In this document: positions 7,323 through 49,159 of the stretch, in pieces
How the letters are laid out: each line of letters starts with the position of its first letter
Position numbering within the stretch: position 1 is the first letter of the stretch
NCBI RefSeq assembly: GCF_004358095.2
Contig: NZ_SMZJ02000001.1
Coordinates: forward strand, 434,001 to 498,000
Length of the DNA stretch: 64,000 nt
Source of the DNA: Seonamhaeicola sediminis
GTDB taxonomy: Bacteria > Bacteroidota > Bacteroidia > Flavobacteriales > Flavobacteriaceae
Reading direction: 5' to 3'
Translations under genes and position numbers: made by a program
Notes under the pieces: generated by a model
Database searches by the model: none
What the model was told of the DNA's origin: nothing
What the model saw: the letters and a program-made list of their open reading frames with translations, nothing else

Positions 7323-7377
7323 GTAATTAATCACAATATAATTTAAAGGCTAAAGATATAATAGGACACCCCAAAAT

Positions 7378-7395
7378 CCGTCCTGTACTGTTATG
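7378..7395. promoter_or_regulatory. Degenerate copy of the CTATCCTG-N2-CTATCCTG direct repeat
   Basis: It reads CCGTCCTG-TA-CTGTTATG, matching the two 8-base units at 6 and 5 positions. The spacing and the position upstream of a transcription unit agree with the stronger copies elsewhere. Alone it would not be convincing. Confidence 0.4.
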
Positions 7396-9360: not shown

Positions 9361-12300
9361 TTAAAAGGAATTAATTTTAAGCTGAATCGTATGCTTCCCT
9401 GGTGATAATCTAATATATTCAAAAGCAGACGGCACTTTTTCTCCATTGTGAATTAAATCTTTTCCATTTAAATCGTTTAAAGAAAATTCAGCCACCATAT
9501 TCCCTGGAATTTCAATTTCATAAGTTTGTAATCTAGCACTATTGAACTTGTAACTCGCTTTTATGGGGCCTCTAACCGTTGGTACTGTTATCTCACTAGA
9601 TTTCAATTTACTCATTTGTGGTTTAATAGTGGCTATACCAAAACCAGGTGTTTTTGGTTTTATACCCCACATACCTCTTGGAATTACATTTGCTGGTGCC
9701 GCTCCCCAGGCATGATTCCAGTCTAAATTTACTTTATATTCATAATCCCAGGCTTCGAGACTAATTGTTGAGCCTACTCTAATCATGTTGTACCAACTTC
9801 TTTTAGCCTTACTAGCTAATAATTCAAGTGCATAATCTGCTTCACCAGCATTATACAAACCATCCATTAAAAACTGTGCACCGTATACGCTACAAGCCAT
9901 TCCTCGAGATTTCACATAATCTACAACAGAACTAAAATGTTCTTCTGGTACTAGTCCAAAAGCCAAAGGCATCATATTGGCATGCAAAGAAGCATGGTCT
10001 GTACCAATACCGTCTACATAAATGCCACGTTCTTTGTCGAACATTTGTTCATTCACTGCTTTTTTAGCTTTGGCTGCTCTATATTCAAAATCTAAAGCTT
10101 CTTGCGTTTTTCCTAATATGGTAGCAAACTCAGCCATAATTTTCATGTTCTCATAAAAGAATGAATTAATAACTGTACTATAAGGCTTAAATACAAAACC
10201 ATCTCGTTCTCCTTTGGTTTTGCTTCCTGCAAAATTAGCTGATGGCCAATCTACAATATCCGTTAATGGTTTCCTATAACCTTTTTCAAACCCAAGCTTA
10301 TACATAAACTCTTCAGTAACTTTTGTAGAGGTTATTAAGCCATCTTCATTAGACAGTTCAAAAAGCGTTTTATGTTTTAGTGGCTCATAGTATCGCTCTA
10401 TTAATTCTGTATTTCCAGTATACATGTAATCTGCATAAATTAATAACGCTACATGCTGTTGCCACTCTGTTGGCCACGTAGGATTTTTCATAAAATATTC
10501 AATAGTACGTCTTGCTATTGCGTATTCCCTGTCTGTGGTGTAATGGCTTAACTGATTAAGATACGCATCGGCTTCATAAGGAATGCGTTCTCTGTCGCCA
10601 TCTACATAAAGACCAGCAAACGTGGTTGCTTTAATGGAGTATTTGCAGAAATCCCAAACTTGGTTTAAAATATCATCATTACTTTCAAAGCTACTTGCAT
10701 TATCATCCCAATAGCTAGTGTATCTTAATTGTTCGAAATCTTCTGCTTTTAAAGCTGTTTGAGCACCTTCAACTTCCGCATATCTAAACGGCTGCAAAAC
10801 AGGCCACCCTTCTTGCAAAGGAATTGCTTTACTTGGCCCTTTAAAGCGCTTATCTGGAACAGGATCAATAGCTATTTGGTACTTTGTTTTTCCAGGGGTT
10901 ACATCAACCTTAATTTCTTGATAGCGAATGTTACTTTTTGCTGGTGGTGTTCTATTTACATTCCCTTCGCCATCCAACATTTCGCCAATTCTAACCGTTA
11001 GGGTATGGGGTTCTGTAGCTGTGTAATTGAAATCGATGGTTGCAAAAGCTGCCTTGCCAAAGTCCATAAAGTAAAAGTCTCCTCTGTTTTCGATTTTAAC
11101 TGGATGTACCTTATCTATAAGATATTTGTTCTCTGTTGAAATGATATAGCTATCACTTTTTCCTGTGGTGAATTTTTGAGCTTCTGAATAATCGACTACT
11201 CTGTTTTCTTGTTCCCAAATTCTAACTTTCCAATAGTAGCTTTTTCCAATTTCTAAAGGACTACCTCCATACTCAACATCTGTTGATTTACTGGAGGCTA
11301 CTCTTCCACTATCCCAAACATCGCCATTGTTGTTATCAATATTCTTCAAGCTTGATGCCACCAATATTTGGTAAGCCCCTTGGAACTTAGAACCTAATGG
11401 TACCGTCCAACCAAACTCAGGCTTTAAATCAAAAATTTCTACATCAGACTGTGGTTCTCTAATTAATTCAACTGTTAAATCTGTTGGTGCAGCACGGTAT
11501 TCATCACTATTTTTCTTAATAAGTTCGTCAAGTTTAGCTCTTAACTTATCGGCTACAGCTTTATATTTTTTCTTACCTATTAAATTTTTAACCTCTTGTG
11601 GGTCTTTCTCTAAATCGTATAACTCTTCTAAAGATTTATCGTTTACATATCTGAAATACTTCCATTTTTTTGTACGCACCCCTTCACTTGGTGGAATGGG
11701 TTCAAAATCCCATAGATGCTCTATAAGAATGGTGTCTCTGCCTATATTATTAGTTTCTTGATTCACAATAGGCAGTAAACTTTTACCTTGCCAGGTATCA
11801 GGCGCTTTTACTCCCGCTATATCAGCAATGGTTTGTGGCACATCTATGTTGAGTACCATGTCTTTAATATCTTGATGTTTATCTACTCTAGGATCAAAAA
11901 TAATTAATGGTACACGAACGGAATTGTCATACATTAACCATTTTCCAGCAAATTGGCGTTCGCCTAAAAAGTAGCCATTATCTCCCATTAAGATAATCAC
12001 CGTATTTTTATCTATACCTTTTGCTTTAAGTTTTTCTCGAATTTTTTTGATTTCTAAATCAATTCCAGAAATCATTCTATAATACCCTTTTAAACTATGC
12101 TGATATTTTTCTGGGGTGTCATAACGCCAAGTCCAACGTAATCTATTAAAACCATCTCTTACCATTTTTGGTTGTGCTAAGAAATATTTATCATCGCCTA
12201 GTGCTGGTTCTGGAATGGTAGTATCTTGAAGAAGCCCGTCTGTGGTATTTTGCCAAAAGTACTGCTCTGGGGCACCATCATGGGCATGTGGAGCACTAAA

Positions 12301-12879
12301 ACTTAGGGATAAACAAAACGGTTTTTCATTGGTGGCATTTTTATCTATAAAATCTAATGCTTGTTGCCCTGTATATCTTGTTAAATGTACCGTGTCATTG
12401 TCTATAGTTTTGTAATAATACCCTCTTCGGTCTTTAAAACGATTGTTTCTATCATACTCATCATATTCATCAAATTGTTTCTCTAAACCGTTATAACGTA
12501 CACCGTACTTTCCAAAAAAACCTGTGTAATATCCATTATTTTTGAGGAGGGTTGGATACGAGTTTGCCATGTATTCATCACGTATATTCCCCGTTTGGAA
12601 ATTATAGTTATGGGTACGTTCGTGTAAACCTGTAAAAATACTTGCTCTACTAGCTGCACAAATTGGTGTAGTAACAATAGCTGTATGGAAATAGGTTCCA
12701 GATTTTGCTAAATCATCCATTTCTGGAGTCTCAACAAATTGATTTCCTGCATAGCCAATCGCATCAAAACGCTGATCATCTGTAAGAATAAAAATGATAT
12801 TTGGTTTGTCTTGAGCAATTACAACATTTAAGCTAAAAATTGCTATTACAAGTCCGAAGAAAAAATTGGTTTTAGACAT
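9361..12879 (-). CDS. Bifunctional S1 sulfatase - GH78 alpha-L-rhamnosidase fusion
   Basis: This 1172-residue secreted protein (signal peptide 1-22, ending VIAQ) joins two enzymes. Residues ~24-460 form a type I sulfatase: LTDDQR (Asp34/35), the formylglycine motif CAASR (Cys74-Arg78), APHAHDG (~196-202), GDNG (299-302) and a downstream Lys (AGKW). A sulfatase-maturing enzyme is required but not encoded here. From ~476 comes a GH78 rhamnosidase: an N-terminal beta-domain, [12 protein letters not shown] (760-771) with the catalytic acidic residues, and [15 protein letters not shown] near the C terminus with the conserved His. Such sulfatase-GH78 chimeras are known from ulvan loci of marine Bacteroidota, where the halves remove sulfate from, then cleave, rhamnose. 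It is the first gene of a two-gene unit with the DUF5060 gene, and two putative operator copies lie upstream. Confidence 0.93.
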
Positions 12880-12943
12880 TAAATTATTATTAACGGTTAA
12901 AAATTTTAATAGTGTATAAAACTAAATTATTTCTAATCTTGCT

Positions 12944-12981: not shown

Positions 12982-13022
12982 AAAAAAACTCTCCATGATA
13001 AATTATTTCTATCATGGAGAGT
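12982..13022 (-). terminator. Strong hairpin with T run between two operator copies
   Basis: The arms ACTCTCCATGATA and TATCATGGAGAGT (12988-13000 and 13010-13022) pair perfectly over 13 bases with a 9-base loop. On the minus strand the stem is followed by a run of T (12987-12982). It is either a back-up terminator for the SusC/D unit or an attenuator in the sulfatase leader. Confidence 0.75.
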
Positions 13023-13104
13023 AATGACTAACTCAAATAATTTTACTTACTCTAAAAATTTAAACTCGAATATGTAACAAAAATAGGGGGATATAAAATT
13101 ATAT

Positions 13105-13122
13105 CTATCCTGTAGTATCCTG
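13105..13122. promoter_or_regulatory. Putative GntR operator, second copy upstream of sulfatase/GH78
   Basis: It reads CTATCCTG-TA-GTATCCTG, 15 of 16 bases matching the consensus. It lies 161 bases upstream of the copy at 12944, so the pair could support looping, or this copy could serve a promoter before the 12982-13022 hairpin. Confidence 0.6.
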
Positions 13123-21084: not shown

Positions 21085-24000
21085 TTAAAAATCTAAATTA
21101 AAACCGACATTAAATTGTGCCATAGTAGGATAGTCTCCTCTAAAAGTCGAATCTTGAGTTTGACTACTGTTAAATTCTCTATCATCTGGTAAATCTGTCC
21201 ATAAGAACAAGTTATTACCATTAGCAAAGATACTTAGCGCTTTAACCCCTATACTTTCACATATCGTTTTTGGGACTTTGTAGTTTAGTGCTATAGCCCT
21301 TAACCTTGTTAAAGACCCATCAAACCATACTCTTCTTGGATCGGTATCTCCTCCTAGCACACTACCATCAGAAAACTGCGGTTGTGTTCTTGTAGCTGTT
21401 GGGTTATCTTTAGTCCAATAGTTTCTCTCATGCGCAAAGAATGTATCTATTTCATTTGAGAACGTTCTACTAGAATAATTTCTATTGGTATTTTGTGTAC
21501 CATAGAACTGAGCAGAAAGACTCCATCCTTTGTATTTTACTCCCACTGTAGAAGCCCATGTTCTTTGTGGACGTGTTGGAAAACCAAATGGCACGTTATC
21601 TAAAGCAGGATTATATACACCATCACCATCATAATCAACTAAGTTATAATACCCTGTACGAATATCCCCTTGTCTATTTAATAATGGCGTTGAACTATAT
21701 AAATCATCTAAACTTGCCAAAATATCTCCGGGAATAGCACCTCTTTGCTGACCAATAGGAAAACCAGCAGCTTTTTGGTAGAACGGACGTAATTCTGGAT
21801 CTTCTCTATCGATTACTAGATCTTTAGCTTGCGTAAAGTTAAAATTACCAAAAATATTAATTCCATTAGCAAAGGTATGGTTAGCACTTAACACAATTTC
21901 ATAACCACGCACTTCAACTTTACCTCTATTAAAAGCAGGTGGGCTAGCTCCAAACAATTCTGACACGGCCCTTTGACCACTAGGTATTAGGATATCATTA
22001 CGATTTTCCCCAAAAAAGTCTACTTCTGCCTTAATGGCATTATTAAACAATCCTAGCTCTACTGCATAGTTATACTTTATAGCTGTTTCCCATTGTAGAT
22101 TAGGATTACCAACATTAGCCTCTGAGAAAAACACATAATCTGAACGTGTATTAGAGGCATTAGGGTTTATAAAAGCACCACCATTGTTAGTCCAAGTTTT
22201 CTGATATTCAAATCTATTTCCTCCACTATCATCTCCAATTAAACCGTAAGACCCTCTAAATTTTAATAGATTTATCCAATCTATGTCTTCCATGAATGCT
22301 TCATTAGATACTGTCCAACCAGCTGCTACCGCTGGAAAGAGATCAAAACGAAATCCTGGACCATATTTTTCAGAACCGTTGTAAGCACCACTAATATCTA
22401 AGAAGTACCTTTTATCATAATCGTAAGTAACCCTACTTACCCAGTCTTCACGAAAAACAGGAAAACCATTACCTGTAGCACGTTGCTGACGTCTTACCAA
22501 AAACAATCCTGTAACAGCATGTTTTTCAGCAAAGGTCTTGTTATAGTTAAAAGAAAAATCATATAATAAATTACGTCTCATACGTTGATTAGCAGAACCT
22601 TCATTACCATCAAGTATTTGTGCAGGTTCCAAACTCCATGGAAATGGCACAAAACCAAAATCATTCACCCCATTTGGAGATTCTATTCGCTCTTCAAAAT
22701 CTTGATTATATATACGATACCTCACATTTTCTTGACTATCTGCTCCATTGTCTAACAAACGCTGTCTGCTTGTAGATCTATTATCTAAGGTCAAACGTCC
22801 TTGAAACGATAAACCCTTGGTTATAAAGTCTAAGTTCTGATTTAAAACAAAGTCAGTATTTATACTGAAGGTATTGGTGGTAGTATATCCTGTATTTGTT
22901 AAAATAACTAAAGGATTTGTGTTTGCAAAAATATCTGCGTCGTCTCTACCAAATGCCCCATCAGGAAAAATGGGTGTAAAAGCATTAGGAGCCAACTCGT
23001 ATATGGAATTTGTTACCAAATTTATATTTCCAGGCGTTTTTTGAATACCATAAAACCCACCAAGTCTAACAGAAAACTGCGTGGTTTTTGTGATATCAAA
23101 ATCAATATTAGTACGGTAGTTAAATCTATCATAAGCATAACCACTCTCATAGCTTTTACCAGTATCATAGCTATTGCCATCAAAAATATCGGACACCTTT
23201 TGGTAAGCTAAACTACCAAAATACCTAGCATTATTTCCGCCACCTCGAACAGATAAATTAACACGATAGTCTTGAGCAAAATCTTTTACAAGCGCATCAC
23301 GCCAATCTACGTTAGGAAAAATTAAAGCCTCCTCTGGACTAGCCGGATTACGAAATCTATCTGCAATGGCTATAGGTCGATAATTATTCCAAGCTTCCTC
23401 CCTCTGAGCAAGCTCACGCAATATGGATGAATTTGCTTCCATAATAGCATCAAAAACATCTAGTTTTTCTGGCAACTTAGAAACAAACTTTGTGGTAACG
23501 TTGGTCTGCAAAGACAGTTGTGCTTTCCCTTTTTGACCTCTTTTAGTTGTAATCAAAATAACACCATTAGCACCCTGAACACCAAAAACAGCTGTAGCAG
23601 AGGCATCTTTAAGCACGGATAGATTTTCAATATCGTTAAAATCGATATTATCAATATCCCTTGGCGCACCATCTACAAGTATTAAAGGCTGCCCGTCACC
23701 ATTCCATGATGCCTGACCACGAATAAAGATTTGCACATCATTATTACCCGGCACACCATTACCTTGTATAGCAACCACACCTGGCAAATTACCTTGTAAG
23801 GCTTGCTCAACGTTAGTAATACCTGAGTTTAACTCTTGTAAGTCATCACCTTTAATTTGGGAAATAGCCCCAACTACACTTTCTTTCTTCTGGGCACCAT
23901 AACCAACAATAACCACTTCATCAAGACTTTCCACGTCTTCTTCCATAGTTACATTAATGGTTGTTCTGTTGTTTACTTGAATCTCAACAGATTTAAAACC

Positions 24001-24279
24001 TAAGTAAGAAAACACTAAGGTTTTTTGACCAGACGTTAATTCAAGCGAATAATTCCCGTCAAAATCTGTTGACGCTCCGCGGGTAGTTCCTTTTTGCAAT
24101 ATACTTACCCCAGGTAAAGGTATACCGCCAACATCTGTAACAACACCAGAAATTTTTTCCTGAGCCTGTAAATTAGCAACTGTAAAACTGGAAAAGACCA
24201 GTGCTACTAAAAGCGCTAATGCAGAAACAGAAAATTGTCCTTTAAATTTTTGTTTCATTTTGAGTTTTAGTTTTAACAT
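21085..24279 (-). CDS. SusC/RagA TonB-dependent outer-membrane transporter (pair 2)
   Basis: The 1064-residue protein is the first gene of the five-gene SusC/D unit. It has a signal peptide (FTVANLQAQE), a carboxypeptidase-regulatory-like domain (ISGVVTDVGGIPLPGVSI...), the classical SusC segment LDEVVIVGYGAQKK, a plug with LILVDGAPRDIDNI and SATAVFGVQGANGVILITTKRG, and a barrel ending in FNVGFNLDF. A second ATG at 24258 (MKQKFKGQF) would give a shorter, more typical signal n-region; either start is possible. A perfect copy of the putative operator lies 99 bases upstream. Transport is energised by TonB-ExbBD, which is not in the window. Confidence 0.95.
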   Translation of the reverse strand: MLKLKLKMKQKFKGQFSVSALALLVALVFSSFTVANLQAQEKISGVVTDVGGIPLPGVSILQKGTTRGASTDFDGNYSLELTSGQKTLVFSYLGFKSVEIQVNNRTTINVTMEEDVESLDEVVIVGYGAQKKESVVGAISQIKGDDLQELNSGITNVEQALQGNLPGVVAIQGNGVPGNNDVQIFIRGQASWNGDGQPLILVDGAPRDIDNIDFNDIENLSVLKDASATAVFGVQGANGVILITTKRGQKGKAQLSLQTNVTTKFVSKLPEKLDVFDAIMEANSSILRELAQREEAWNNYRPIAIADRFRNPASPEEALIFPNVDWRDALVKDFAQDYRVNLSVRGGGNNARYFGSLAYQKVSDIFDGNSYDTGKSYESGYAYDRFNYRTNIDFDITKTTQFSVRLGGFYGIQKTPGNINLVTNSIYELAPNAFTPIFPDGAFGRDDADIFANTNPLVILTNTGYTTTNTFSINTDFVLNQNLDFITKGLSFQGRLTLDNRSTSRQRLLDNGADSQENVRYRIYNQDFEERIESPNGVNDFGFVPFPWSLEPAQILDGNEGSANQRMRRNLLYDFSFNYNKTFAEKHAVTGLFLVRRQQRATGNGFPVFREDWVSRVTYDYDKRYFLDISGAYNGSEKYGPGFRFDLFPAVAAGWTVSNEAFMEDIDWINLLKFRGSYGLIGDDSGGNRFEYQKTWTNNGGAFINPNASNTRSDYVFFSEANVGNPNLQWETAIKYNYAVELGLFNNAIKAEVDFFGENRNDILIPSGQRAVSELFGASPPAFNRGKVEVRGYEIVLSANHTFANGINIFGNFNFTQAKDLVIDREDPELRPFYQKAAGFPIGQQRGAIPGDILASLDDLYSSTPLLNRQGDIRTGYYNLVDYDGDGVYNPALDNVPFGFPTRPQRTWASTVGVKYKGWSLSAQFYGTQNTNRNYSSRTFSNEIDTFFAHERNYWTKDNPTATRTQPQFSDGSVLGGDTDPRRVWFDGSLTRLRAIALNYKVPKTICESIGVKALSIFANGNNLFLWTDLPDDREFNSSQTQDSTFRGDYPTMAQFNVGFNLDF

Positions 24280-24743
24280 ATATTATAGTTTTACTAGTTA
24301 GTATGACCAGAATGAACAATCAATTCTAAAAAAGTCATAGTAATCAACAACAATGTTACAAATTAAGACATTCTATCCTATCCTGTTCTATCCTGATATG
24401 TAGTTATTTTTTCATAAAATATTTAATTTTTAGATTAATAGTTAAACAATAAGCTGCCTAAATTTAAAATAAAACTTTTAAAACACAAATTTGATTTACG
24501 CCTTACCTCATTAACTTATTTTAAAAAACCTGTCAAAGTAAATAATACTAATGTCTATAATTTAACTACCAAAAAAAGTTACCATTTAGCATTTTACTAG
24601 AATTTAACACCCTGTTATTATTGAGGATAAATAAAGAAAGAACAATTACACTATAATATAGAAACTGAAAAGGAAACAATTATCCAACTTCAAACATGAT
24701 AACATATTTAAATAGTCATTCATTTGAAAGTTACACACAAATA
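24280..24743. other. 464-base AT-rich intergenic region upstream of susC
   Basis: It lies between the GntR stop and the susC start. The operator repeats (24373-24395) are the only clear element. The rest is very AT-rich; I see no convincing terminator behind the GntR gene, no reading frame and no RNA gene. Confidence 0.6.
24373..24395. promoter_or_regulatory. Putative GntR operator upstream of the SusC/SusD unit (best copy)
   Basis: CTATCCTG (24378-24385), two bases, CTATCCTG (24388-24395): a perfect 10-bp-period direct repeat. A third partial unit, CTATCCTA (24373-24380), overlaps the first. It is 99 bases from the susC start. Confidence 0.7.
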
Positions 24744-25745
24744 CTATAGCGAGTCTCTAACAATAAGTTTGGTATCTAAATATGTTTTTGGAATTTCATC
24801 TGAAGAAATAAAGTCGGCTACTTTAGTTCCAAATTCTTTAAAATCTATAGAGATGACAGATATTCCTTTATACGTGAATCTTTTAAGCGGTGTATCATTG
24901 TAAGACAAAATACCTACGTCTTTACCAATTTCATAATCTGCATTGGCACTCTGACTTAAAAGCTCGTAAAGAATACGATCATTCACACAAATGTAAGCAG
25001 TACCTTTTTCTACTGTGAGCATTTCTGAGTTAACACAAACACTATGATCTATTTTATTAGATTCACAAAACGCTTTAAAATAATCAACACTCTCATAAGG
25101 ATGGTACGTATACTCCGGATAAACGAATACTAATTTTTTATATTTTTTTAATAAGCATTTTGCCTCTTCAAGACAAGCATAAAAAGCTTTTCCAAAGTCT
25201 TGAAAAACATACCCTCCTGAAACCTGTAAGTTAGCTTTCCAATCAATTAATAGTAGTTTCTTTTTATCTATCATAGCTAGGCTTTTTCTGACTCCGGGGT
25301 GATCAAACCCCATAACGATGTATTTGTAATACTTTGCATTATCAACATCTAACATGGTCTTAAAGTTTTTTACATTATAGTGATGAAACTGTAAATCAAC
25401 AGCAATGTTATCTGGTATACAACTCATAAAAGAATGATAAAATACTTCTTTGTAAGCTTTGAATGTACTTATTAACATAAGCACCTTCTTTCTACTTTCT
25501 GTGATGTAATATCCTTTATTTGGAGTAGAATTAATTAAACCTTGTTTTTTTAATAAGGCATAAGCCTTGTAAACGGTATCTCTGGAAACTCGGTAGTCTT
25601 TACTAAACTCATTTATTGAAGGTATTCGGTCTCCTTGCTTAAGCTTGTTACTTTCAATGGAGCTTTTTATTGCATTGGCTATTTTAATATATTTAGGACT
25701 ATCATTGTCACTTAAGTTTTTTATTGTAATTTTTTGATCTACCAT
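24744..25745 (-). CDS. GntR-type regulator with LacI-like sugar-binding domain
   Basis: The 333-residue protein has an N-terminal winged helix of the GntR family (about 15-85: YIKIANAIKSSIESNKLKQGD, IPSINEFSKDYRVSRDTVYKAYALLKKQGLI). The following ~245 residues resemble the periplasmic-binding-protein-like sensor of LacI-family regulators (LIDWKANLQVSGGYVFQDFGKA..., AYICVNDRIL..., VGILSYNDTPLKRFTYKGISVISIDFKEFG), the layout of AraR-type regulators. It should bind DNA as a dimer and respond to a sugar or sugar derivative in the cytoplasm. It heads PUL1, transcribed alone in the same direction, and carries its own operator copy at 25856, which suggests autoregulation. The ligand is unknown; a rhamnose- or uronate-derived compound would fit the neighbouring genes. 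Confidence 0.88.
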   Translation of the reverse strand: MVDQKITIKNLSDNDSPKYIKIANAIKSSIESNKLKQGDRIPSINEFSKDYRVSRDTVYKAYALLKKQGLINSTPNKGYYITESRKKVLMLISTFKAYKEVFYHSFMSCIPDNIAVDLQFHHYNVKNFKTMLDVDNAKYYKYIVMGFDHPGVRKSLAMIDKKKLLLIDWKANLQVSGGYVFQDFGKAFYACLEEAKCLLKKYKKLVFVYPEYTYHPYESVDYFKAFCESNKIDHSVCVNSEMLTVEKGTAYICVNDRILYELLSQSANADYEIGKDVGILSYNDTPLKRFTYKGISVISIDFKEFGTKVADFISSDEIPKTYLDTKLIVRDSL

Positions 25746-25855
25746 GTATTTTCTTAAATAAACAGTCTAACCTATAAAAATAAAGTGTATTGAAATTCAT
25801 ATTCACACTTGAAGACCGCAGAATGAATCAAATAAATAAAAATTCAAAATATAAT

Positions 25856-25873
25856 CTATCCTGCTCTATCCTT
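25856..25873. promoter_or_regulatory. Putative GntR operator upstream of the GntR gene
   Basis: It reads CTATCCTG-CT-CTATCCTT, 15 of 16 bases matching, 111 bases before the GntR start codon. This supports autoregulation. Confidence 0.62.
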
Positions 25874-46628: not shown

Positions 46629-49043
46629 TTACTGTATATTTAGATAAGTACCTTTAAAACTTTGATTTAACACCATAACTTGTAAAACCTCTTCATTTGA
46701 AAATTTTTTAACTTCAATAGATGCTTGTCCATTTGCCATTTCAATAACTTCACTTCCCGTTGGAGTACCGTAACTTACAACAGCTTCGCCTCCATTTAAA
46801 CATTGAAAATAGACGCGTTCTTCATAATCTAAACAACGCAAACCTTTGTTATCTATGGCCGTTGCGGTAATTAAGTAATTTCCATTATCTAAGGTAGAAT
46901 ATTCTAGCTTTAAAGATCTAGCTTTACCGTTTTTAACAAACCTGTAAGTTAGCCTCAGTTCATCCCCAACTTCTTTACCATCTGCACTCTTTGCAATAGA
47001 GACTAATTTATTTTCACCTTCTTTAAACTTTACATTCCAATTTAAGCCTGCTGATGGAAACAATTTTGAATCTCTTTTTTTTACACCTAGACTTTCATCA
47101 TTAAGAAACAGTTCTACTTCTGGACAATTACTGTAAACACTAATTGTTCTTGCTTTACCTTTTGGTCCTTGTCTTTCTGTCCAAGTATGAGATTCTATAT
47201 ACGTAAAAGGATCATCACTCCAATAACTCTTAAATACATAAAAAGCATCTTTTGGGTTACCTGCTCTATCCACTAGCCCTTTTTGGTTCATGTAAGGAAT
47301 CGCATTTTCTGGCCTTAACGGTGTGCCAAAATCTTTAAATGCCCATTGTATATTACCAACAAAGATTGAATCATTTTCAGAAATGCGCAAGTGCCAATCA
47401 AATAAGTCTACAATATAGTTCTCACTCCAATCGCCTATTTGGGCTATGTTAGCTACATCGGTTTGCACGATAGCCTCTTCCCAACCATCAGACTGAATTT
47501 TACCTTCCCCTGTGATAGGGTTTTCAGTGTGTCTTCCCACATGGCTTGATCCACCATATTCTGCATGTAAAAAATGAGGGTACTGTGCCTTGTATTGATC
47601 TATAGCTTTTTGATAACTTTTATAACTACCTGAATACCATCCAGACCAAATAGAGGGTGAAAACACATCCACAATATCGGCGCCCTCATAATACTTTCTA
47701 ATGGCCGTTTTCCTTGTTGGGTCTAATTCATGTGCGTAATCATGCAACTCTTTTAAAAATGCGTTAATTTTTTCAGGGTTATCTCCACCTTCAAAATCTG
47801 GCAACCAATAAATTTCATTTCCTAGAGACCATAAAATTATACTGGGATGATTATAATTCTGTTCAATAATTTCTTTAAGCATAGTTTTGGTATTAGCTTT
47901 CCAGACATCATTACCAACACCACCTCTACACCATGGTAGTTCATCCCAAACCAATAACCCTAATTCATCGCAAGCTTTATAAACCTCAGGATCTTGAGGA
48001 TAATGCGCTAATCTTATAAAATTAGCCCCCATTTCTTTTATGAGTTCCATATCTGCTCTATGCTGTTCATTACTCATAGCCGCACCAACACCGGCGTGTT
48101 CCTCGTGCCTATGCGTTCCTCTTAGCAGCAAGCGTTTGCCATTTAAATAAAATGCTCCATAATCCTTAAACTCGAACCAACGAAACCCTACCTGTTCTGA
48201 AATTTCGTCAAGTACTTTCTCATTTTGCAATAACTGTAATTTAAAAGTGTAAAGATTCGGATTTTCGGTATCCCATAACTCAATATCTTTTAATTCATTG
48301 AAGCTAAATTCTAAATCAGAATTATCGAACTCTTTTGTTTGTGATTGAATTTCTGTTCCATTTGAATCCAATAAAATTGCTTTCACCGAAGCTATATCAT
48401 CGGAATTGATGATTTCGAAAGTAGCATTTAAATTGGCATTTTCTTTTGAAATATTAGGTGTGGTAATTTTTAAATTTGATAGATATTGTTGAGGACGTGT
48501 TTCTAACCAAACATCCCTTGTTATACCTCCGAAAATGAAAAAATCACTTTTTTGAGATGGTATCACTTCTGGATTGTAACTGTTATCAACTCGAACCAAT
48601 ACTTCATTCAAACCTGTTGAAATAACATCAGTAATGTCAACAGAAAAGCCTATATAACCTCCCGTATGACCACCAACTTTTTTCCCATTTACATATACCT
48701 CACTTTCAATATTGACCCCTTCAAAATATAGGTTATAAATTTGTCCTTCTATTACCTGTGGAATTTCGAGGCTCTTTTTATACCAACTCACACCACGTCT
48801 GTATCCTGGAGTAATATCGGTAGCATCTAGAGCATTCCAAGTATGTGGTAAGTTAACAGGATTCCAGTGTATCTGTTTTCGAGCAGTATTTATATCTTTA
48901 GTATTATTCTCTAGATATAACCAATCATTATTAATACTAGTTTTGCTTCGTTCAGGATTTTGATTTGATTTGGAATTACATGCTAGTATTAGAAATGCGC
49001 TAATGCCAAAAATAAATCGATATACTAAAAGTTTTATTTTCAT
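46629..49043 (-). CDS. GH2 family glycosidase, lipoprotein (beta-galactosidase/beta-glucuronidase type)
   Basis: The protein has about 804 residues from ATG 49043, where the sequence begins with a clean lipoprotein signal (FGISAFLILACNS); the frame extends to TTG 49064. The GH2 order is visible: sugar-binding jelly roll (GVSWYKKSLEIP, VYVNGKKVGGHTGGY), immunoglobulin-like domain, and barrel with acid/base Glu in LWSLGNEIYW and nucleophile Glu in HAEYGGSS. Extra C-terminal beta-domains follow. GH2 covers beta-galactosidases, beta-glucuronidases and others. Uronate-catabolic neighbours make a uronidase attractive, but no decisive residue is seen. The gene follows GH88 by about 120 bases containing a putative operator and a hairpin, so it likely has its own promoter. 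Confidence 0.9.
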   Translation of the reverse strand: MKIKLLVYRFIFGISAFLILACNSKSNQNPERSKTSINNDWLYLENNTKDINTARKQIHWNPVNLPHTWNALDATDITPGYRRGVSWYKKSLEIPQVIEGQIYNLYFEGVNIESEVYVNGKKVGGHTGGYIGFSVDITDVISTGLNEVLVRVDNSYNPEVIPSQKSDFFIFGGITRDVWLETRPQQYLSNLKITTPNISKENANLNATFEIINSDDIASVKAILLDSNGTEIQSQTKEFDNSDLEFSFNELKDIELWDTENPNLYTFKLQLLQNEKVLDEISEQVGFRWFEFKDYGAFYLNGKRLLLRGTHRHEEHAGVGAAMSNEQHRADMELIKEMGANFIRLAHYPQDPEVYKACDELGLLVWDELPWCRGGVGNDVWKANTKTMLKEIIEQNYNHPSIILWSLGNEIYWLPDFEGGDNPEKINAFLKELHDYAHELDPTRKTAIRKYYEGADIVDVFSPSIWSGWYSGSYKSYQKAIDQYKAQYPHFLHAEYGGSSHVGRHTENPITGEGKIQSDGWEEAIVQTDVANIAQIGDWSENYIVDLFDWHLRISENDSIFVGNIQWAFKDFGTPLRPENAIPYMNQKGLVDRAGNPKDAFYVFKSYWSDDPFTYIESHTWTERQGPKGKARTISVYSNCPEVELFLNDESLGVKKRDSKLFPSAGLNWNVKFKEGENKLVSIAKSADGKEVGDELRLTYRFVKNGKARSLKLEYSTLDNGNYLITATAIDNKGLRCLDYEERVYFQCLNGGEAVVSYGTPTGSEVIEMANGQASIEVKKFSNEEVLQVMVLNQSFKGTYLNIQ

Positions 49044-49069
49044 TTTAAATGGAATAGTTTTCAAATTAT

Positions 49070-49100: not shown

Positions 49101-49141
49101 ATTCTATATTTTCATAAAAGTACTCAAGACCCGAAGACAAT

Positions 49142-49159
49142 CTGTCCTGAACCATCCTG
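49142..49159. promoter_or_regulatory. Operator-like direct repeat upstream of GH2 in PUL2
   Basis: It reads CTGTCCTG-AA-CCATCCTG, 14 of 16 bases matching the PUL1 consensus with the same 10-bp period. It lies 99 bases before the GH2 start and just after the GH88 stop. Confidence 0.52.

Follow-up and report, generated by a model that had tools for sequence, protein, structure and literature searches.

A fixed-register direct repeat marks a candidate ulvan and L-rhamnose regulon of GntR-LacI proteins in Seonamhaeicola sediminis and related flavobacteria

The closest characterised protein to the GntR-LacI regulators considered here is AraR of Bacillus subtilis. It follows the same plan, a GntR winged helix joined to a LacI-type effector domain, and it likewise controls polysaccharide and sugar genes in response to a sugar. 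AraR is described as binding palindromes and as repressing its targets (PMC4218819). By contrast, the sites that we describe below are not palindromic: they run head to tail with a 10-bp period, in fixed register with a -7 box, and are presumably bound by a GntR protein. Direct repeats have been described in the GntR family as exceptions to the usual palindrome, for NanR, NagQ, FarR and the MocR-type GabR, TauR and PdxR (PMC4494728). The opinion of the initial annotation that such an arrangement is unusual for the family is correct, but the arrangement is not unprecedented; the exceptions differ from the present case in their effector domains and in their words, and they are not GntR-LacI chimeras. 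Another GntR-family regulator of a deoxyhexose operon in Bacteroidota, FucR (BT1272) of Bacteroides thetaiotaomicron, is described as controlling a single operon (PMC3878776).

Rhamnose regulons have been described for AraC, DeoR and LacI regulators, and at the rhamnose genes governed by the DeoR-type RhaR, a member of a different protein family, the direct repeats measure 10-11 bp, much as here (PMC3870299). In Bacteroides, PUL regulons have been described for HTCS and SusR, again with direct repeats before PUL genes, those of HTCS lying about 21 bp apart (PMC3878776), whereas the period here is 10 bp and the sites concern many PULs together with monosaccharide catabolism. Among the literature matches listed, from a search that left supplements, preprints and most subscription papers outside, nothing deals with the motif or with a GntR-LacI regulator of rhamnose or ulvan genes in flavobacteria.

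The window, that is, the whole stretch of 64,000 nucleotides analysed here (C1:434001-498000 of a 3.54-Mb genome), carries six such repeats (Table 1). In gene orientation all of them take the form CAGGAYAG-N2-CAGGAYAG, followed after 19 nt by the Bacteroidota -7 box (TAnnTTTG), and relative to the downstream gene the six share one orientation. Five direct repeats had been claimed beforehand, one of them perfect and three matching at 15 of 16 positions; all five were found at their coordinates, and the four better ones show 0, 1, 1 and 1 mismatch to the strict pattern CTATCCTG-N2-CTATCCTG. With up to three mismatches allowed, this pattern matches the window five times against 0.25 expected, and none of 100 shuffles gave five matches or more. 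The five matches are those four sites and a new one, the repeat of the second PUL. The degenerate repeat before the Gfo/Idh unit has five mismatches to the strict pattern, yet it reaches 21.2 bits by matrix and keeps the 19-nt register to its -7-like box, as do the other sites of the window. Chance as the origin of the repeat is disfavoured by the shuffle, reversed-matrix and control-pattern counts. An inverted-repeat reading was dropped, since in that sense the consensus matches only at its central GT/AC. The further claim, that the repeat stands before every PUL1 unit with a PUL enzyme or importer, was a fair one, although sites also occur beyond PUL1.

Table 1. Direct repeats of the window and GntR-LacI genes of the genome. 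Coordinates without a contig prefix are positions in the window.
Feature	Position	Strand	Context	-7-like box	Identity to C1:244012 protein
Direct repeat CAGGATAG-AA-CAGGATAG	24378..24395	-	before SusC gene 21085-24279	TAACATTG 24351-24358	
Direct repeat AAGGATAG-AG-CAGGATAG	25856..25873	-	before GntR-LacI gene 24744-25745	TTTATTTG 25829-25836	
Direct repeat CAGGATAG-TG-CAGGATAA	12944..12961	-	before sulfatase-GH78 gene 9361-12879	TAGTTTTA 12917-12924	
Second, upstream direct repeat CAGGATAC-TA-CAGGATAG	13105..13122	-	sulfatase-GH78 gene 9361-12879	TATTTTTG 13078-13085	
Degenerate repeat CATAACAG-TA-CAGGACGG	7378..7395	-	before Gfo/Idh-GH43-GH3-GH88 unit	TATCTTTA 7351-7358	
Sixth repeat CAGGATGG-TT-CAGGACAG	49142..49159	-	before GH2 gene 46629-49064, second PUL	TACTTTTA 49115-49122	
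rha-clade GntR-LacI	C1:244012-245061		beside rhamnose operon, outside window		reference
GntR-LacI paralogue	C1:275852				52%
GntR-LacI paralogue	C23:51608-52636 (L051:11602-12648)				63%, closest
GntR-LacI paralogue	C23:3311		beside galactose genes		40%
Window GntR-LacI regulator, 333 aa	24744..25745	-			35%

The sulfatase-GH78 gene has two promoter-like sites, and a terminator-like hairpin with a T run (12988-13022, minus strand) lies between them. A transcript from the upstream site would thus meet this hairpin about 50 nt past its predicted start, and leader control of the gene is possible.

Over the whole genome, the 18-mer with up to three mismatches occurs at 30 places against 7 with a backward control, and 23 of the 30 fall within C1:232165-499287. 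Scanning C1:200001-518000 with a matrix of the repeat (threshold 16 bits) gives 31 hits, against one with the reversed matrix. Of these, 28 lie outside predicted ORFs; two overlapping hits (271482/271492) fall within an ORF but before its likely ATG, the predicted start being over-long, and the hit at 357871 is inside an ORF without Pfam match. A composite matrix (repeat plus -7 box) at 18 bits or more finds 30 hits in 378 kb, none in the reversed control, and 0 and 1 in two Markov shuffles; it was trained on those same 30 sites, so that tests in other genomes weigh more, and the reversed-pattern control preserves composition only. Genome-wide, the motif occurs above the frequency of its control. 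The evidence supports some 30 such promoters spanning 267 kb of the genome, forming an ulvan/L-rhamnose regulon, in place of the operator tied to PUL1 that had been proposed. PUL1 as the boundary of the regulon was rejected, sites being spread as far as rhamnose catabolism and RhaT.

The first genes behind the sites encode, among others, RhaT, a PL28 ulvan lyase, GH78-type rhamnosidases, sulfatases, GH2, GH5-like and GH39 proteins and an ECF sigma factor. Those in the window head the SusC, sulfatase-GH78, Gfo/Idh and GH2 units. A site also precedes the gene of an aldolase-dehydrogenase fusion, the first of an operon that further encodes an FGGY kinase and an aldehyde dehydrogenase; the lactate genes lutAB are likewise among the targets. 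Behind site C1:499267 lies an SDR gene, with UxaC nearby. Six of the 28 target proteins scanned have no Pfam match at 1e-8, including the presumed rhamnose isomerase, whose identity is taken from position and size only. This combination of rhamnose, uronate and sulfate functions fits ulvan, to which it points as the substrate of the regulon. The ECF sigma factor gene (C1:327161-327730, behind site C1:326965-326988) suggests a regulatory cascade.

To examine the placement of the repeat, 31 sites of this genome were aligned in gene orientation; nothing but the repeat guided their choice, and 30 were strong while one, at 11 bits, was weak. The strongest conservation beyond the repeat is a single element, TAnnTT(T), at one distance, with T in 30 of 31 sites at either of its two key T columns. 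At 19 nt, TAnnTT is present in 22 of 36 sites of this genome. A repeat-only scan of named relatives gave 167 unique sites. TAnnTT starts 19 nt past the repeat at 96 of these, at a distance of 20 nt at 26 and of 10 nt at 19; TTATTTT, a form common in Flavobacterium, allows both a 19-nt and a 20-nt reading. The stricter TAnnTTTR occurs 84 times in the relatives' sites, 68 times at 19 nt and nine times at 29, one unit further. In the window the gap is 19 nt at all six sites, with boxes of variable quality, TAACATTG and TTTATTTG each departing by one base from the -7 consensus.

TAnnTTTG is described as the sigma-A -7 box of Flavobacterium psychrophilum, at -12 to -5 (PMC9723704), which would place the repeat at about -49 to -32. 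The sites thus stand beside the core promoter with fixed spacing and orientation, as in class II activation, and this placement suggests activation of a class II-like kind. The initial annotation speaks of an operator; the constant distance between repeat and -7 box favours a site for an activator over a classic operator. Arrays of three or more head-to-tail units are occasional, being present at 7 of 148 sites in named loci (0.9 at control offsets) and at none of 30 in this genome. Three or four 10-bp units are seen in Zobellia, Maribacter and Arenibacter (L135:12119, L129:13950, L126:13108 and L106:13429), where the last pair is in register with the -7 box.

Which protein might read such a site? 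The genome encodes five GntR-domain proteins, all of them GntR-LacI paralogues (Table 1) with the residues S-R-D-T-V in common within the recognition helix. The window protein matches PF00392 above cut-off (N-terminal GntR winged helix) and PF13377 (C-terminal, LacI-like). The structure predicted for the rha paralogue (from an alignment of five sequences, pLDDT 85) has a winged helix, a poorly predicted linker (residues 80-84) and a LacI-repressor-like domain, and it matches LacI structures. The closest paralogue, C23:51608, has a sulfatase gene and an HTCS-sized gene for neighbours. No recognisable repeat was found beside it in the gaps searched, and over the 80 kb of the C23 stretch the best composite hit has 14.6 bits, none reaching the scores of the C1 sites; its recognition helix is almost identical to that of the rha regulator, yet comparable sites are absent there.

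We consider it probable that the repeat is the promoter-proximal site of a GntR-LacI sugar sensor that turns on the ulvan/rhamnose regulon, with the protein encoded at C1:244012-245061 as its main binder. The sites, their spacing and orientation, their neighbouring genes and their phylogenetic association are observed; from them we infer binding by a GntR-LacI protein, the nature of the effector, and activation over repression. At least two winged-helix domains would occupy successive CAGGAYAG units, 10 bp apart, in head-to-tail order, an arrangement that a flexible linker would allow. Bound where a -33 element would lie, the protein would help sigma-A RNA polymerase onto the TAnnTTTG box. Judging by context, the effector would be L-rhamnose or an ulvan sugar. 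As main binder, the paralogue next to the rhamnose operon is the likeliest candidate. The window paralogue also has the repeat in its promoter and could recognise these sites as well; it may be either a target or a second binder of the repeat.

Other clades of GntR-LacI proteins have repeats of their own. Galactose-linked GntR-LacI genes and their near relatives carry CTRGTAGG-N2-CTRGTWGG (up to three mismatches) just upstream at 25 of 29 usable loci, against 1 in the control; these are L196-L216 and L218-L221, L217 being too short, while L222-L225, the most distant, lack the repeat. It occurs in both orientations (17 and 8), and 6-23 nt separate it from whichever -7-like box is nearest the start codon; at L221 no such box was found. 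This repeat is likely a repressor operator of a galactose regulator. In the sister clade of the window GntR, CAGAACAG-N2-CAGAACRG (up to two mismatches) lies just before the gene at 12 of 13 loci (L233-L240 and L246-L249; control 0), and in six of these the repeat and a -7-like box start 13 nt apart. Several come directly after the -7 box. Two further clades thus carry 8+2 repeats with words of their own: the frame goes with the protein family, and the 8-bp word with the clade.

Outside the bacterial family, a generic 8+2 search (7 of 8 bases identical) found no repeat upstream of GntR-LacI genes at 22 loci, and four downstream (L262, L267, L275 and L277). The composite pattern is modestly enriched in 22 other-family genomes with a GntR-LacI match (92 hits against 19 in the control); it gives 21 against 10 in 14 genomes without such a match, namely G489 and the first 13 other-family genomes listed without one.

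The placement of the repeat looks repressor-like in the galactose and sister clades and activator-like at the rhamnose/ulvan promoters. To us this contrast is the best argument both that GntR-LacI proteins bind the repeats and that the rhamnose clade acts differently. It also bears on the idea that the same regulator, at the same sites, is a repressor, which would cover the -33 region without sugar and leave when rhamnose or a derivative is bound, in the manner of AraR. AraR and most described GntR proteins do repress, and the arrangement in the galactose and sister clades fits repression; the rhamnose/ulvan promoters, however, have a fixed orientation and a 19-nt gap, against both orientations and 6-23 nt in the galactose clade. 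Repression seems to us unlikely, if quite conceivable.

The association of the motif with the rhamnose-operon protein was examined in 199 genomes of the family, including this one. The rha clade was defined by E<1e-100, a cut-off set after viewing the table, in which no genome lies between 1e-80 and 1e-128. The 42 genomes with a rha-clade protein contain 523 composite sites against 65 in the control, while the 48 with a distant GntR-LacI protein only contain 60 against 62, and the 109 without any GntR-LacI match 113 against 96. With the present genome left out, at least five sites are found in 37 of 41 genomes with a rha-clade GntR and in one of 157 without (Fisher p 2e-34, kinship ignored). 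The exceptions are G001, G049, G080 and G121, which have the clade but 1-3 sites, and G017, which has 5 sites without the protein. In such a phylogenetic profile the regulator is not fully separable from other rhamnose genes. Among the best 80 of 521 confirmed named relatives of the rha GntR, which include many Flavobacterium near copies, a site is present at 78 loci (none at L078 and L130), with 161 hits against 2 in the control in 1.55 Mb; 137 of the 145 relatives' sites of at least 20 bits lie outside ORFs. In Flavobacterium, a site lies between the rha GntR gene and the divergent rhaT operon.

That the window paralogue is the main binder appears improbable. It is encoded within PUL1, its promoter has a site, and its orthologues in five of six other genera have a site with 0-1 mismatch just downstream (L231 has none). 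Against this, the orthologues' own promoters have a clear site in two of six cases and a partial one only in four (3-5 mismatches, one better than control). Furthermore, ten genomes have a single GntR-LacI match (E<=1e-20, with every candidate scored), of the rha clade; nine of them hold 6-18 sites (G080 holds 2), so that the window paralogue is not needed. The motif is present near orthologous regulators, as the downstream sites of these orthologues and the rha-clade loci both show. The choice of a GntR regulator in the initial annotation is supported as to the GntR-LacI family but not as to the paralogue, for the motif follows the gene beside the rhamnose operon.

Binding of the repeat by an HTCS, for example the one truncated where the window begins, had also been raised as an alternative, but it is very unlikely. 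Bacteroides HTCS motifs are described as direct repeats before PUL genes, and three HTCS genes lie in the region; yet the published repeats are about 21 bp apart (PMC3878776), against a period of 10 here with no conserved element some 21 bp away. Among the 37 other rha-GntR genomes that have five or more sites, 14 match the window-start HTCS, the one profiled of the three, at E<=1e-250 (three candidates scored per genome), and G010 matches it while having 0 sites. As for a DeoR-type RhaR, which shares the sugar and the periodicity (direct repeats of 10-11 bp at rhamnose genes; PMC3870299), it can hardly be the binder unless the profile misses a divergent DeoR protein, the sole DeoR-profile match in the genome being a 70-aa frame on contig C2.

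Taken together, and tentatively, these observations may describe a GntR-LacI protein that acts as a direct class II activator on head-to-tail repeats held at a rigid distance from the -7 box. A single rhamnose sensor would then govern ulvan use from end to end: secreted lyases, importers, the ECF sigma factor and the catabolism of rhamnose and lactate. The protein family would have changed its 8-bp word while keeping the 8+2 frame, one clade using it in fixed register for activation and others in flexible register for repression.

Coordination of many PULs for the use of a single algal polymer is poorly mapped in marine flavobacteria, and the models described for Bacteroides assign a local HTCS, SusR or ECF regulator to each PUL. 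A single promoter signature makes membership of the ulvan/rhamnose regulon readable from sequence across many genera, and the shared site suggests functions for the unknown genes behind it. The signature also lends itself to a clear test of the ability of a GntR-LacI protein to switch on transcription from direct repeats. If our reading is true, one master switch sensing an end product would command many PULs, as opposed to one local sensor for each of them.
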